Positions 60,936 through 64,000 of a stretch of DNA of 64,000 nt are shown here, piece by piece. Location: contig JAIQEW010000002.1 in NCBI GenBank assembly GCA_020073605.1, forward strand, positions 186,001-250,000, read 5' to 3'. The stretch's first letter is position 1. Every line of letters starts with the position of its first letter. The position numbers were made by a program, and so were the translations under genes. The notes under the pieces are model-generated. The model did no database searches, had not been told where the DNA came from, and worked only from the letters and a program-made list of their open reading frames with translations. Source of the DNA: Terriglobia bacterium. GTDB taxonomy: Bacteria > Acidobacteriota > Terriglobia > Acidiferrales > UBA7541.

Positions 60936-62060
60936 GTGCCGAAGACTCCTGAAGAGTGGCTGGCAGTCACCACGCCTCCCGAGAAAACGAAGGGCGTATT
61001 AAAGCTGTTCCTCGGCTACGCCCCCGGCGTCGGCAAGACCTACGGCATGCTCACCGAGGCGATTCGCCGCCACAGCCGCGGCGAAGACGTCGTCATCGGC
61101 TTCGTGGAGACCCACGGGCGCAAAGGCATCGCCGAACTCATTCCCCAGCTCGAAGTCGTCCCACGCAAGAAAATGGACTACAAGGGCACGCTCTTCGAGG
61201 AGATGGACGTGGACGCCGTGATCGCGCGGCGCCCGGCCGTCGCCCTGGTTGATGAGCTGGCCCACACCAACGTTCCCGGCAGCAAGCACCGCAAGCGGTA
61301 CGAAGACGTCCTCCAAATCCTCGAAGCCAAAATCGACGTCCTCTCCACCGTCAACATCCAGCACATCGAAAGCGTCGCTCCCACCGTTCAGGCCATCACC
61401 GGCGTGATCGTCCGCGAAACCGTGCCGGATTGGGTGCTCACGATCTCCGATGAAACCGTGATGGTCGATCTCACGCCGGAAGCTCTCGCCAACCGGATGA
61501 AGCGCGGCGACGTGTACGGCAAGGAAAAGGTCGAGCAGTCGCTGAAGAATTTCTTCCGCCGCGGCAATTTGATCGCCCTGCGCGAGCTTGCCCTTCGGCA
61601 GGTGGCCGAGCAGGTGGACCGCAGCCTTTCCTCCTACATGGACGAAAAGGAAATCCAGGAAAACTGGGCGGTCCGCGAGCGCATCGCCGTGTGCATCAGC
61701 GCCAATCCGCGGGCGCAATATCTGCTCGCGCGCGCCGCGCGCATGGCCCGGCGCATGGATGCCGAGCTATTCGCCGTCCACGTGGACATCGGCAACGGCA
61801 CCGATACGCGCGACGAAAAAGCGCTCGCCGCCAACCTGAAATTCGCCGAAAGCCTGGGCGCCACGGCCGTGCGCCTGAAGGGCAAGAGTGTCCCCGACGC
61901 CGCGGCCCAGTTCGTGCGCGAAAAGCACGTCACGCAGATGATCTTCGGCAGGACGGCCACCGAAGGCTGGCACAAGCTCCTCTACATGAACGCCATCAAC
62001 CGCTTCCTCCGCGACGCCCCCGCCGTCGACGTCCACATCGTCACCCAGGAACCCGACTGA
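60936..62060 (+). CDS. kdpD: N-terminal half of a split KdpD: KdpD ATP-binding plus USP domains
   Basis: A 374-residue soluble protein. Residues 15-230 are the KdpD domain with Walker A GYAPGVGKT, FVETHGRKG and VDELAHTNVPGSKHRKRYED. Residues 250-374 form a universal-stress-protein domain that in KdpD binds c-di-AMP or ATP. It ends where KdpD membrane helices would begin. GTG at 60936 is 50 nt from the divergent kinase start, so a shared control region is implied. Confidence 0.9.
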   Translation: MPKTPEEWLAVTTPPEKTKGVLKLFLGYAPGVGKTYGMLTEAIRRHSRGEDVVIGFVETHGRKGIAELIPQLEVVPRKKMDYKGTLFEEMDVDAVIARRPAVALVDELAHTNVPGSKHRKRYEDVLQILEAKIDVLSTVNIQHIESVAPTVQAITGVIVRETVPDWVLTISDETVMVDLTPEALANRMKRGDVYGKEKVEQSLKNFFRRGNLIALRELALRQVAEQVDRSLSSYMDEKEIQENWAVRERIAVCISANPRAQYLLARAARMARRMDAELFAVHVDIGNGTDTRDEKALAANLKFAESLGATAVRLKGKSVPDAAAQFVREKHVTQMIFGRTATEGWHKLLYMNAINRFLRDAPAVDVHIVTQEPD

Positions 62061-62522
62061 CAATCCGCGTTCTTCGCGTCCCGGATGCCTCTGCGGGACG
62101 ATAAGGATTGTCATCCCGCCTGCCCTGAGTGCCTTGGCGAAGGGAGCGAGGCCGGTTTTTGGCCGACGAGGGATCTGCTCTTGCCTTCGTAGCGGCGGCC
62201 TTAAGGCCGGCGATTTGTATTGTGGGTCGGAGCTGAACTTGTCCCGAGTGCAGCCGAGGGAGCTCCGACATAAACATATCGTCGCGGAACGTCTTCCGAT
62301 GCGCTGCACCTATCGCAGCAAGTACTGCCGCCACCGTCGATGGCTGCGCTCTCGACGACTTCGTCGCTTGAATCGTCATCGACATCCGATAGTTGATTCC
62401 CGGTGTCCACAAACCATCACACTTGACACACTTGCGGCCCAAGCATACGCTTCTCTGCGGATTAGCGGAGATACGTATTTGCACTATGGACAACCACTAA
62501 ACGATGTGAGGAAGAAAACGAA
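62061..62522 (+). other. intergenic region with repeat-like remnants
   Basis: No credible gene in 462 nt. It contains CCTGAGTGCCTTGGCGAAGG and GGGATCTGCTCTT segments, an inverted GGCGGCCTTAAGGCCGGC near 62193-62210, and GTCGGAGCTGAACTTGTCCC with a later GGGAGCTCCGAC. These resemble dispersed intergenic repeats of Acidobacteria-like genomes (recall, not searched). The right end holds the xre promoter. Confidence 0.4.
62423..62471 (+). promoter_or_regulatory. xre promoter with adjacent operator
   Basis: TTGACA (62423-62428), 17-nt spacer, TACGCT (62446-62451). Directly downstream is an imperfect dyad, TCTCTGC (62452) and GCGGAGA (62465). CTGCGGATTAGCGGA (62455-62469), read in reverse, matches 12 of 15 bases of the dyad in front of the ubiquitin-like gene. 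It lies where a repressor would block the start of transcription. Confidence 0.55.
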
Positions 62523-62828
62523 ATGACAAAATCGCTTGGTCAGACCATCAGGGAGGCCCGTGTGGCCGCCGGGATGACTCAGAGAGAACTGGCTGCCAAG
62601 ATCAAAAAGCAAGACGGCCAACCCATCACTCCCCAGTATCTAAATGACATCGAGTTTGACCGACGAACACCGACCGAGTTCATATCAGATCAGATCGCAA
62701 AAGTGTTAGGTTTGCATGCTGGCCATCTCGTCATGATGGCCGGCTCTCTTCCAGCCGGAATAGTTCGCGAAGGGATATCCGAGGAAAAGGCGAAGGAAGC
62801 GCTAAAGGCGTTCCGAAAACCGAAGTAG
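62523..62828 (+). CDS. XRE-family helix-turn-helix repressor
   Basis: A 101-residue regulator whose N-terminal HTH_3 domain includes TIREARVAAGMTQRELAAKI and PITPQYLNDIEFDRRTP. A short helical tail follows. GAGGAAG lies upstream. It is 9 nt before an ImmA/IrrE protease, the classic repressor/anti-repressor-protease pair. The likely targets are its own promoter and that of the ubiquitin-like gene. Confidence 0.88.
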   Translation: MTKSLGQTIREARVAAGMTQRELAAKIKKQDGQPITPQYLNDIEFDRRTPTEFISDQIAKVLGLHAGHLVMMAGSLPAGIVREGISEEKAKEALKAFRKPK

Positions 62829-62837
62829 GTAAAGCTT

Positions 62838-63554
62838 ATGAAATGGGTTCCCGACAGATCTCGCCGATTTGAGAGTCGTCCGCACTATGCGCCGGGCGAG
62901 CTGGATGCGGAGTGCGAACAAATCGTGGAGTCCGTGTTGATGAAGAGGCACGGAAGTGTCATGTATCCGATCGGCACCGAGGATCTCCTTTTTATGCTGG
63001 AGCGCGAAGCTTCGGTAGACCTGTATGCCGACTTGGATTCCGCAACGGGCGAGGTGTGGGGAGAGACGGAATTCCTTCCGGGCGATAAGCCCTATGTGAG
63101 GATCCTGAGGCGCCTTGCCGAGAACGACTCATATTCCAATCCTCTCCGCACTACGATCACACACGAGTTTGGCCACGTCCATTACCACGGCTTCATGTTT
63201 GCGGCATCGCAGTCGTCTGGCAATTTGTTTGGCTTGGGAGAACACGCCACGAAGACCTGTAAGAGGGAGCACATGGAAAGACCCAAGGTTTCGGACTGGA
63301 TGGAATGGCAGGCAAATTACTGCTCAGGCGCGCTGCTGATTCCGCAGAGCGCCGCGCGCAGAGTCGTTACGGATTTCCTCCGGGCAAACGACATCGCTGC
63401 CGCTAAGCATGGGCCAGCGTCTCCAGCCGGACTGCGCCTTACATCCAGCGTCGCCAAGACCTTCAGCGTTTCAGAGGCAGCGGCACGGGTTCGCCTATCC
63501 CAACTGGGCTATCTGAATGAAGGGAGCGAAAATCAAAAGATTCTCTTGACGTGA
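62838..63554 (+). CDS. ImmA/IrrE-family metallo-endopeptidase
   Basis: A 238-residue protein with a zinc-protease motif, THEFGHVHYH (His109, Glu110, His113), and the downstream acidic helix WMEWQANYCSGALLIP that supplies the third ligand. The C-terminal part (SVAKTFSVSEAAARVRLSQL) looks like a small helical DNA- or protein-binding tail. ImmA/IrrE proteases cleave XRE repressors when activated by stress, de-repressing target genes. Confidence 0.88.
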   Translation: MKWVPDRSRRFESRPHYAPGELDAECEQIVESVLMKRHGSVMYPIGTEDLLFMLEREASVDLYADLDSATGEVWGETEFLPGDKPYVRILRRLAENDSYSNPLRTTITHEFGHVHYHGFMFAASQSSGNLFGLGEHATKTCKREHMERPKVSDWMEWQANYCSGALLIPQSAARRVVTDFLRANDIAAAKHGPASPAGLRLTSSVAKTFSVSEAAARVRLSQLGYLNEGSENQKILLT

Positions 63555-63590
63555 CATTTTTTTGGCCTGATAATCCGCTTATCAGCGGAT
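63546..63590 (+). promoter_or_regulatory. promoter and perfect dyad operator of the ubiquitin-like operon
   Basis: TTGACG (63546-63551), 17-nt spacer, GATAAT (63569-63574), the best-spaced strong promoter in this region. ATCCGCT (63573-63579) and AGCGGAT (63584-63590) form a perfect 7-bp dyad overlapping the -10 and start point. A related site lies at the xre promoter. Repression by the XRE protein and release by ImmA are inferred. Confidence 0.65.
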
Positions 63591-63623
63591 CAGCAGTACA
63601 TAGAACTGCCCGGGAGGGCCGAC

Positions 63624-63866
63624 ATGAACGTGATCACCAAAGCTATTCACATTCTCTTGGAGATTGACAGGCACACGACGAAGAGACTCGAGTTCAGCAG
63701 CGACGACGTGACGGGGCGGCAGATCAAGGAAGCGGGCGGCGTTCCGTTAACCGATGACCTGGCGATCCGCCACGGTGATCATCTCGAGCTCGTCACGAAC
63801 GATCAGCAGATCGAGATTCACGACGGGGAGCGTTTTGTTGCCCTCCCTCCCGGCACGATCAGCTAG
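63624..63866 (+). CDS. ubiquitin-like small protein (multiubiquitin-family resemblance)
   Basis: An 80-residue protein with GGGAGG upstream of its ATG. The order matches single repeats of the bacterial multiubiquitin family: an opening beta strand, LEFSSDDVTGRQIKEAGG (helix after a TGR turn), HGDHLELVTNDQQIEIHDGE and a closing RFVALPPGTIS. It contains no Cys. It ends in PPGTIS rather than a free diglycine, so processing or a non-canonical linkage would be needed. It is followed 12 nt later by a probable E2-like gene. Confidence 0.6.
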   Translation: MNVITKAIHILLEIDRHTTKRLEFSSDDVTGRQIKEAGGVPLTDDLAIRHGDHLELVTNDQQIEIHDGERFVALPPGTIS

Positions 63867-63878
63867 GGAGAACATGCC

Positions 63879-64000
63879 ATGTCACCCGATACCATCAGCC
63901 GATTTGTGTCCGAAATACAACGGGAGCATCCCGGGATGCTCTACACAGAGGACGGCGGAAGGATTTTGTTAAAGCTGGGGGGTGTGGAGTTTCCGCGCGG
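63879..64000 (+). CDS. probable E2/UBC-like protein, truncated by the window end
   Basis: The first 40 codons are present. ATG at 63879 is chosen because GGGAG lies 8 nt upstream and the frame stays open to the edge; the ATG at 63874 stops early. The visible part (TISRFVSEIQREHPGMLYTE, DGGRILLKLGGVEFPRG) matches the N-terminal helix and first strands of prokaryotic E2-like proteins, ending in the F-P-x-G turn expected before a proline-rich loop. The catalytic region lies outside the window, so this is tentative. Confidence 0.45.
   Translation, partial: MSPDTISRFVSEIQREHPGMLYTEDGGRILLKLGGVEFPR

Follow-up and report, generated by a model that had tools for sequence, protein, structure and literature searches.

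A five-gene acidobacterial cassette, probably a mobile Bub-type ubiquitin-like conjugation operon under CapH/CapP-like control

Gene content and insertion site

We describe a five-gene cassette at the right end of a 64,000-nucleotide stretch of DNA (hereafter the window) from a Terriglobia bacterium, comprising positions 186001-250000 of the 262,846-base contig JAIQEW010000002.1, part of a 3.66 Mb draft genome that is 93.6% complete. In order, the genes encode an XRE repressor, an M78 (ImmA/IrrE) peptidase, an 80-residue ubiquitin-like protein (Ubl), a 120-residue E2-like protein and a 460-residue protein in which a JAB domain is fused to a ThiF/E1 domain (Table 1). The five frames are all open, with little space between them, and the last two overlap by 8 nucleotides. 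The contig extends 12.8 kb past the window and is covered there by a further sequence, L002 (window coordinate = L002 + 61000), from which all coordinates above 64000 are extrapolated. We consider it probable (roughly 0.8) that this is a mobile cassette in which a Bub conjugation operon (type 6e of Iyer et al. 2006) stands under CapH/CapP-like repressor-protease control, a reading supported by gene content, folds, conserved residues, palindromes and an insertion.

An earlier note on this DNA had recognised the XRE, ImmA/IrrE and Ubl reading frames together with the start of a fourth, and all four lie where it placed them; the start that it gave for the feature, 62423, coincides with the TTGACA of a candidate promoter. 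Its expectation that the operon continues past 64000 is likewise borne out, as the contig extension shows the JAB-ThiF/E1 gene together with the E2-like gene, while the DUF6527 partner that it also envisaged has no match in this 93.6%-complete genome. The arrangement is more than a product of chance, since the order of Ubl, E2-like and fused E1 genes recurs in three metagenome-assembled genomes (Acidobacteria DBS2-1.bin74, Nitrospira CR1.3 and Acidobacteria palsa_351, whose fused JAB-E1 proteins are 41-46% identical to that of the window), and since the predicted folds of the Ubl and of an E2-like ortholog are those expected. A scan of the cassette against Rfam gave zero matches.

Table 1 Features of the cassette in window coordinates, with the evidence for each
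Feature	Coordinates	Strand	Basis
Left part of ~3.6-kb insertion	62072..64000 (whole: 62072 to extrapolated 65677)	.	blastn against same-genus loci
Candidate promoter of regulator genes: TTGACA, 17-nt spacer, TACGCT	62423..62451	+	sequence inspection; not listed by consensus scan
Candidate operator 1, two overlapping registers, overlaps -10 element	62445..62470	.	similarity to operator 2 plus symmetry
XRE repressor, CapH-like, 101 aa	62523..62828	+	HTH_3 E 1.6e-11 (Pfam); PADLOC capH 1.1e-5
M78 (ImmA/IrrE) metallopeptidase, CapP-like, 238 aa	62838..63554	+	Peptidase_M78 5.7e-5; PADLOC capP; HEFGH motif
Candidate promoter of conjugation genes: TTGACG, 17-nt spacer, GATAAT (10/12), overlaps M78 gene end	63546..63574	+	consensus scan
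Candidate operator 2, ATCCGCTTATCAGCGGAT, perfect 6-bp arms, overlaps -10 element	63573..63590	.	palindrome
Single-domain ubiquitin-like protein, 80 aa	63624..63866	+	Multi_ubiq 0.0092; AlphaFold2; Foldseek
E2-like protein (BubB-like), 120 aa	63879..64241 (L002:2879-3241; first 122 bases inside window)	+	family alignment; fold of ortholog
JAB (JAMM) + ThiF/E1 fusion, BubCD-like, 460 aa	64234-65616 (L002:3234-4616), beyond window	+	ThiF 4.7e-24; BubCD match; JAMM residues

All five genes lie between kdpD, which ends at 62060, and an amino-acid permease gene on the opposite strand, the first gene that we recognised by eye after the JAB-E1 gene. The ~3.6 kb around the cassette represents an insertion, because blastn homology to the congener locus L077 ends at L002:1071 and begins again at L002:4678. 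A search of 61 genomes found the E2 gene in one, that of the window itself, and in none of 19 congeners (55-96% complete). Across 19 kdpD loci, drawn from 17 of these 19 congeners, the permease gene directly follows kdpD in seven (L061, L063-L066, L076 and L077) and follows it after a gap of ~680 bases in L069; in L062 and L068, kdpD is followed by sequence found further right in the genome of the window, and eight loci show no match past kdpD other than short scattered ones. The remaining locus, L060, carries a different insert, in which 1.1 kb within the kdpD-permease gap (L060:2629-3758) encodes Mrr_N (3.8e-28) and Mrr_cat (2.6e-30) domains in two overlapping frames, a split Mrr-type nuclease gene. 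With a Bub cassette here and an Mrr-type gene in L060, the kdpD-permease site thus accepts defence-type genes of different kinds. At the left end of the insertion (62090-62290) lies a dispersed repeat with 29 matches in its own genome, the query included, mostly of 30-75 bases.

Ubiquitin-like, E1 and E2-like proteins

The proposal that the 80-residue protein is a multiubiquitin-like Ubl is well borne out. Its Pfam match to Multi_ubiq (E 0.0092) falls under the curated cut-off, the family is matched at E <= 0.1 by 7/7 aligned Ubls, and an AlphaFold2 model (mean predicted local distance difference test score, pLDDT, 87.3) has the order of elements of a beta-grasp. The six best PDB chains in a Foldseek search with this model, 8u38 among them, are all multi-ubiquitin proteins of Citrobacter and Methylobacterium (E 2.9e-4 to 1.9e-3), the best being from Citrobacter. 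The protein ends in PPGTIS and so lacks a C-terminal diglycine, as had been noticed. However, the pre-processing that had been offered to account for this end is not required, because a C-terminus other than Gly-Gly is a feature of the family: in an alignment of the Ubls of the window and 14 of 22 related loci (introduced below), with the C-terminal ends of the remaining loci added (n=23), Ser is the final residue in 19/23 and the end reads Gly-x-x-Ser in 18/23. The exceptions are L043 and L046, with one or two residues after GGSS, L050 (SSAS), L058 (GGSA), and L059, which shows no resemblance. The extra residues in L043:3471-4148 and L046:3705-4184 are a possible precursor tail that a JAB domain could trim.

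The 460-residue protein contains a ThiF/E1 domain (Pfam, E 4.7e-24), and in the PDB it is matched best by Citrobacter BubCD, over residues 51-347 (E 5.4e-18). Pfam gave no JAB match; PADLOC E1-E2 matches are restricted to the E1 part. Nevertheless, E27 and H91-x-H93-x7-S101-x2-D104, which we take to be the JAMM metal and catalytic set, are kept in all ten aligned JAB-E1 proteins, picked as fused. A wider alignment of 23 E1 domains used the best single frame per locus (JAB residues are gapped or misaligned where the gene is split), and here the ATP-site residues G199, G202, G204, D223, N231, K249 and R298 are present in 23/23. Residue 293, in the D-x4-R motif of ThiF, is Asn in the E1 of the window and in L038, whereas it is Asp in the other 21/23. 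The near-invariant cysteines are C348 and C351 (22/23) and C434 (23/23), all of them resembling zinc ligands; after these come columns 285 (Cys in 17/23, Ala in the window) and 291 (Cys in 13/23, including the window). Consequently, no invariant cysteine of the E1 domains is left as a catalytic candidate.

The fourth gene had been taken for the start of a probable E2-like protein, and this holds insofar as the gene runs to 64241 and the fold of an ortholog is nearest to BubB, while a standard E2 is not what it encodes. The ortholog, from L038 (43% identity to the window protein), is predicted with a mean pLDDT of 92.6, and its model has Citrobacter BubB (9eae) as top PDB match in Foldseek (E 2.8e-3, probability 1.00, TM 0.65, 13% identity), with human UBE2L6 and UbcH7 at ranks 2 and 4 (E ~0.4) amid unrelated weak matches. 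A profile of 16 E2-like relatives matched solely Citrobacter BubB in the PDB, in two distinct sequences at E 0.26 and 0.27, non-significant alone, and Prok-E2_E is matched by four of these relatives (best 6.7e-18). The predicted structure of L038 thus suggests that the window protein is a BubB-like protein of E2 fold.

It is not a standard E2, because the family lacks a conserved cysteine: among 23 E2-like proteins (that of the window and those of the 22 loci), whose identity to the window protein drops to 14%, the two columns richest in cysteine have it in 11/23 (C42 of the window protein) and 10/23, and we therefore rejected a standard cysteine E2. Residues 33-112 of BubB likewise contain no cysteine. 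By contrast, S93, in a W-x3-S motif, is invariant (23/23), and W89 is kept in 22/23. This serine pattern was not found described in the literature searched, a search that did not cover the core Bub papers.

Regulators, candidate operators and related loci

Both regulators show similarity to the CapH and CapP proteins. In PADLOC the XRE protein matches HTH_VI (9.9e-10) above capH, while capP is the top match of the M78 protein (5.7e-8). The latter carries HEFGH and E-x-Q-A-N motifs and scores 23.4 bits against Peptidase_M78, barely over the 22-bit cut-off; a search of its own genome with the M78 family model nevertheless returned no match.

Palindromes overlap the -10 elements of both candidate promoters, and we read them, from the sequence, as candidate operators of the XRE protein. 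Of the two promoters, the consensus scan listed that of the conjugation genes, its single hit comparing with 0.7 expected in shuffles. Operator 2 consists of arms ATCCGC and GCGGAT around TTATCA, and the two registers of operator 1 are identical to it at 15/18 positions (62445-62462, ATACGCTTCTCTGCGGAT) and 12/18 positions (62453-62470, CTCTGCGGATTAGCGGAG). Scores for similarity plus symmetry were 26 for the first register and 23 for the second, while 500 shuffles reached no more than 20, in a test designed after the sites had been spotted by eye. A joint palindrome pattern for register 62453 has exactly two matches in the genome, both of them cassette sites to which the pattern was fitted, so that this count is not independent; the register best in the shuffle test (62445) also differs from that used for the genome count.

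Related loci were collected by scanning genome contigs with an alignment of three proteins, which yielded the 22 loci (a scan with a single sequence had given no useful stretch among 22 candidates, and none of 53 candidate stretches from viral contigs encodes a relative). In 22/22 the E1 gene has an E2-family gene upstream, the training alignment having included eight of these loci as well as L045 through its copy L005, while the other 13 match at <=4.2e-9. The Ubl is matched in 21/22 (six in training; L059 missed). M78-like genes lie upstream in at least 13/22 loci by a regular-expression search, plus L043 by phmmer, and downstream in 0/22, contig ends shortening the view in some. Neighbouring helix-turn-helix (HTH) or XRE genes were read by eye for L041, L043, L052, L053 and L054, and through Pfam for L059. 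The acidobacterial locus L043 has an XRE gene (1.4e-6, 35% identity) and an M78 gene (8.6e-15, 30%) of the same kind and orientation as the window; a frame resembling an IS3-type transposase, read by eye, lies between this pair and the conjugation genes (L043:2605-3480).

Four loci place an alternative control module before the same core, in each case on the minus strand and divergent from the Ubl gene (L038:2124-4117, L040:1849-3614, L042:3-1813 and L059:1705-3959). An M78 peptidase and a sigma-factor-like protein are encoded there, with a small protein between them that in L059 is an HTH protein. The Pfam matches of the sigma-factor-like protein are weak and under cut-off (Sigma70_r2 at 7.2e-5 in L059 and 0.0088 in L042, Sigma70_r4_2 at 9.4e-4 in L040, none in L038); this protein could be a sigma factor freed by proteolysis.

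Among 126 plasmid records with an E1 match we opened four. The annotated genes include, in three of them, a helix-turn-helix regulator, ImmA/IrrE, multiubiquitin and ThiF, and, in the fourth, an XRE regulator, multiubiquitin, E2/UBC, ThiF and DUF6527. Genes for an ATP-binding protein and an S8 peptidase follow the Bub genes in rhizobial and related loci (L033:6546-9925, L034:6484-9851, L052:6339-9805, L054:6118-9815 and L057:6512-9870), being annotated in two plasmid records, with similar frames read by eye elsewhere. In some Bub operons this pair may serve as an effector; it was not seen after the Bub genes at the window locus. In the Nitrospira relative L039, a DUF2188 gene (1.5e-21; L039:6343-6627) follows the E1 gene. 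A search of the phylum with the E1 protein matched 182/396 genomes at E <= 1e-5, which is not a count of Bub operons, since most matches listed cover residues ~190-314 and look like generic ThiF/MoeB relatives.

Proposed mechanism, alternatives and significance

In terms of known systems, the cassette is a Bub operon with CapH/CapP-like control, both already described. The Citrobacter Bub proteins (multi-ubiquitin protein, BubB and BubCD; PDB 9d59, 9eae and 9ea4) form the same gene set and are the best PDB matches for all three conjugation proteins, yet identity to them is low (67.8 bits by phmmer for BubCD; 13% between BubB and L038), and the Citrobacter multi-ubiquitin chain 9d59 has 247 residues where a single 80-residue Ubl domain is found here. 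Type 6e was defined by an N-terminal JAB fused to E1 and by one to three Ubl repeats, with a Cys-less E2/RWD-like protein encoded between them in some operons (PMC1779556). Each of these features, together with the ThiF/E1 ATP site, is present in the cassette, the protein encoded between Ubl and E1 being of predicted E2 fold and from a family with no conserved cysteine; however, the type 6e section of that paper names proteobacteria, cyanobacteria and actinobacteria, without reference to an XRE/M78 pair, whereas the host here is an acidobacterium. We also considered a type II cyclic oligonucleotide-based antiphage signalling system (CBASS; Cap2/Cap3) and rejected it, as the 93.6%-complete genome has no match to the SMODS nucleotidyltransferase model (PF18144), hence no sign of a CD-NTase, and the E2-like and E1 proteins are encoded by separate genes.

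CapH and CapP, known from CBASS and Bub operons, are encoded as here by a small HTH repressor gene followed by an adjacent M78 gene upstream of an immune-type operon, although the sequence match of the window pair is moderate and PADLOC prefers HTH_VI to capH. According to a 2026 EMBO J paper, CapP is activated by single-stranded DNA and cuts CapH, and CapW or CapH+CapP adjoin 219/544 Bub operons (PMC13373217); consequently, the combination found here is not new. PprI/IrrE and DdrO of Deinococcus share the logic of protease and repressor, as well as the single-stranded DNA trigger (PMC10904395), but control a DNA-damage response, unlike the conjugation operon here.

We propose, by analogy with these relatives, that at rest the XRE protein would sit on the palindromes at the two promoters and hold expression of its own genes, and of those for Ubl, E2 and JAB/E1, at a low level. 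Single-stranded DNA arising from DNA damage or phage replication may, as with CapP and PprI, activate the M78 peptidase to cut the repressor; the pair probably switches the cassette on after DNA damage. The E1 domain would then adenylate the free Ubl C-terminus (Gly-Thr-Ile-Ser), the E2-like protein would help to transfer the Ubl to target proteins without a thioester relay through a conserved cysteine, perhaps via its invariant serine, and the JAB domain would take the Ubl off again. Adenylation, conjugation and deconjugation are here modelled on Bub and its kin, just as sensing and cleavage are on the named proteases.

Several points weigh against this reading. Taken alone, the Pfam matches of the Ubl and M78 proteins are weak, and the 120-residue protein gave zero matches in Pfam, NCBIfam and PADLOC and PDB matches at chance level only; the fold match of its ortholog falls short of E 0.001 for BubB, and that to human E2s reaches only E ~0.4. 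Asn in place of Asp in the D-x4-R motif could lower adenylation by the E1 of the window. The XRE+M78 pair is absent from the three closest relatives (L038 and L040 carry the other M78 module, and none was seen in L039), and Bub is not known to protect against phage (PMC13373217).

With respect to the E2-like protein, two accounts compatible with a Bub cassette can be compared. It is quite possible, if short of an even chance, that the protein is only an RWD-like scaffold, with E1 delivering the Ubl adenylate directly to its target or to Ubl itself and the serine being structural. Both the 23 E2-like proteins, with no conserved cysteine, and the near-invariant E1 cysteines, with their likeness to zinc ligands, speak for such an account, and the Cys-less domain of type 6e was pointed out and predicted inactive, like RWD domains, as early as 2006 (PMC1779556). 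A serine kept in 23/23 proteins at identities down to 14% nonetheless seems more than a plain scaffold would need. Moreover, the title of a separate 2026 paper on Bub claims protein conjugation in a diverged pathway, and this claim and the older view of inactivity are therefore testable against each other. More tentatively, the whole relay may be free of cysteine: E1 would adenylate the Ser-ended Ubl, the E2-like protein would take it on the invariant W-x3-S serine as an oxygen ester, and the Gly-x-x-Ser end would be a recognition mark. If this somewhat doubtful scheme were true, the bond chemistry of the relay would differ from that of thioester-based ubiquitin systems.

Three further alternatives were weighed. 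The Asp-to-Asn change at a usually conserved E1 position (2/23) and the low scores of the Ubl and M78 proteins against their families could point to a decayed, inactive remnant of a Bub operon, but this appears improbable given five open, closely spaced frames, intact ATP-site residues and JAMM ligands, and the same Asn in the L038 operon, whose frames are likewise open. We think it still less probable that the XRE/M78 pair serves the mobile element or a neighbour instead of the conjugation genes; similar pairs do control mobile elements such as TnSmu1 (PMC10233336), yet matching palindromes stand at both promoters here, M78 genes lie near Bub cores in the loci counted above, and HTH and ImmA genes, or an XRE regulator in the fourth case, accompany the opened plasmid copies. 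A sulfur-carrier or cofactor pathway (ThiS/ThiF- or MoaD/MoeB-like) without protein conjugation is hardly credible: ThiF and MoeB are indeed the generic names that NCBIfam ranks first for the E1 domain, but every listed score is far under cut-off and the Ubl ends in Ser rather than Gly-Gly, on which grounds we rejected it, and an E2-like gene, a fused JAMM domain with all ligands present and a patchy distribution (1/61 genomes) argue in the same direction.

As a Bub operon under CapH/CapP-like control, the cassette would represent a compact single-Ubl conjugation system, with five genes, one Ubl domain and one small E2-like protein. The different control modules found before the same core in close relatives suggest that regulation is exchanged as a unit. 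The serine pattern across the family is the part of these findings that may be of use beyond the systems already described, as the combination of no conserved cysteine, an invariant serine and mostly Gly-x-x-Ser Ubl ends turns the question raised in 2006, that of enzyme activity in Cys-less bacterial E2-like proteins, into a test of a single residue, and the cassette is thereby relevant to the possible mechanism of an E2 that lacks cysteine.

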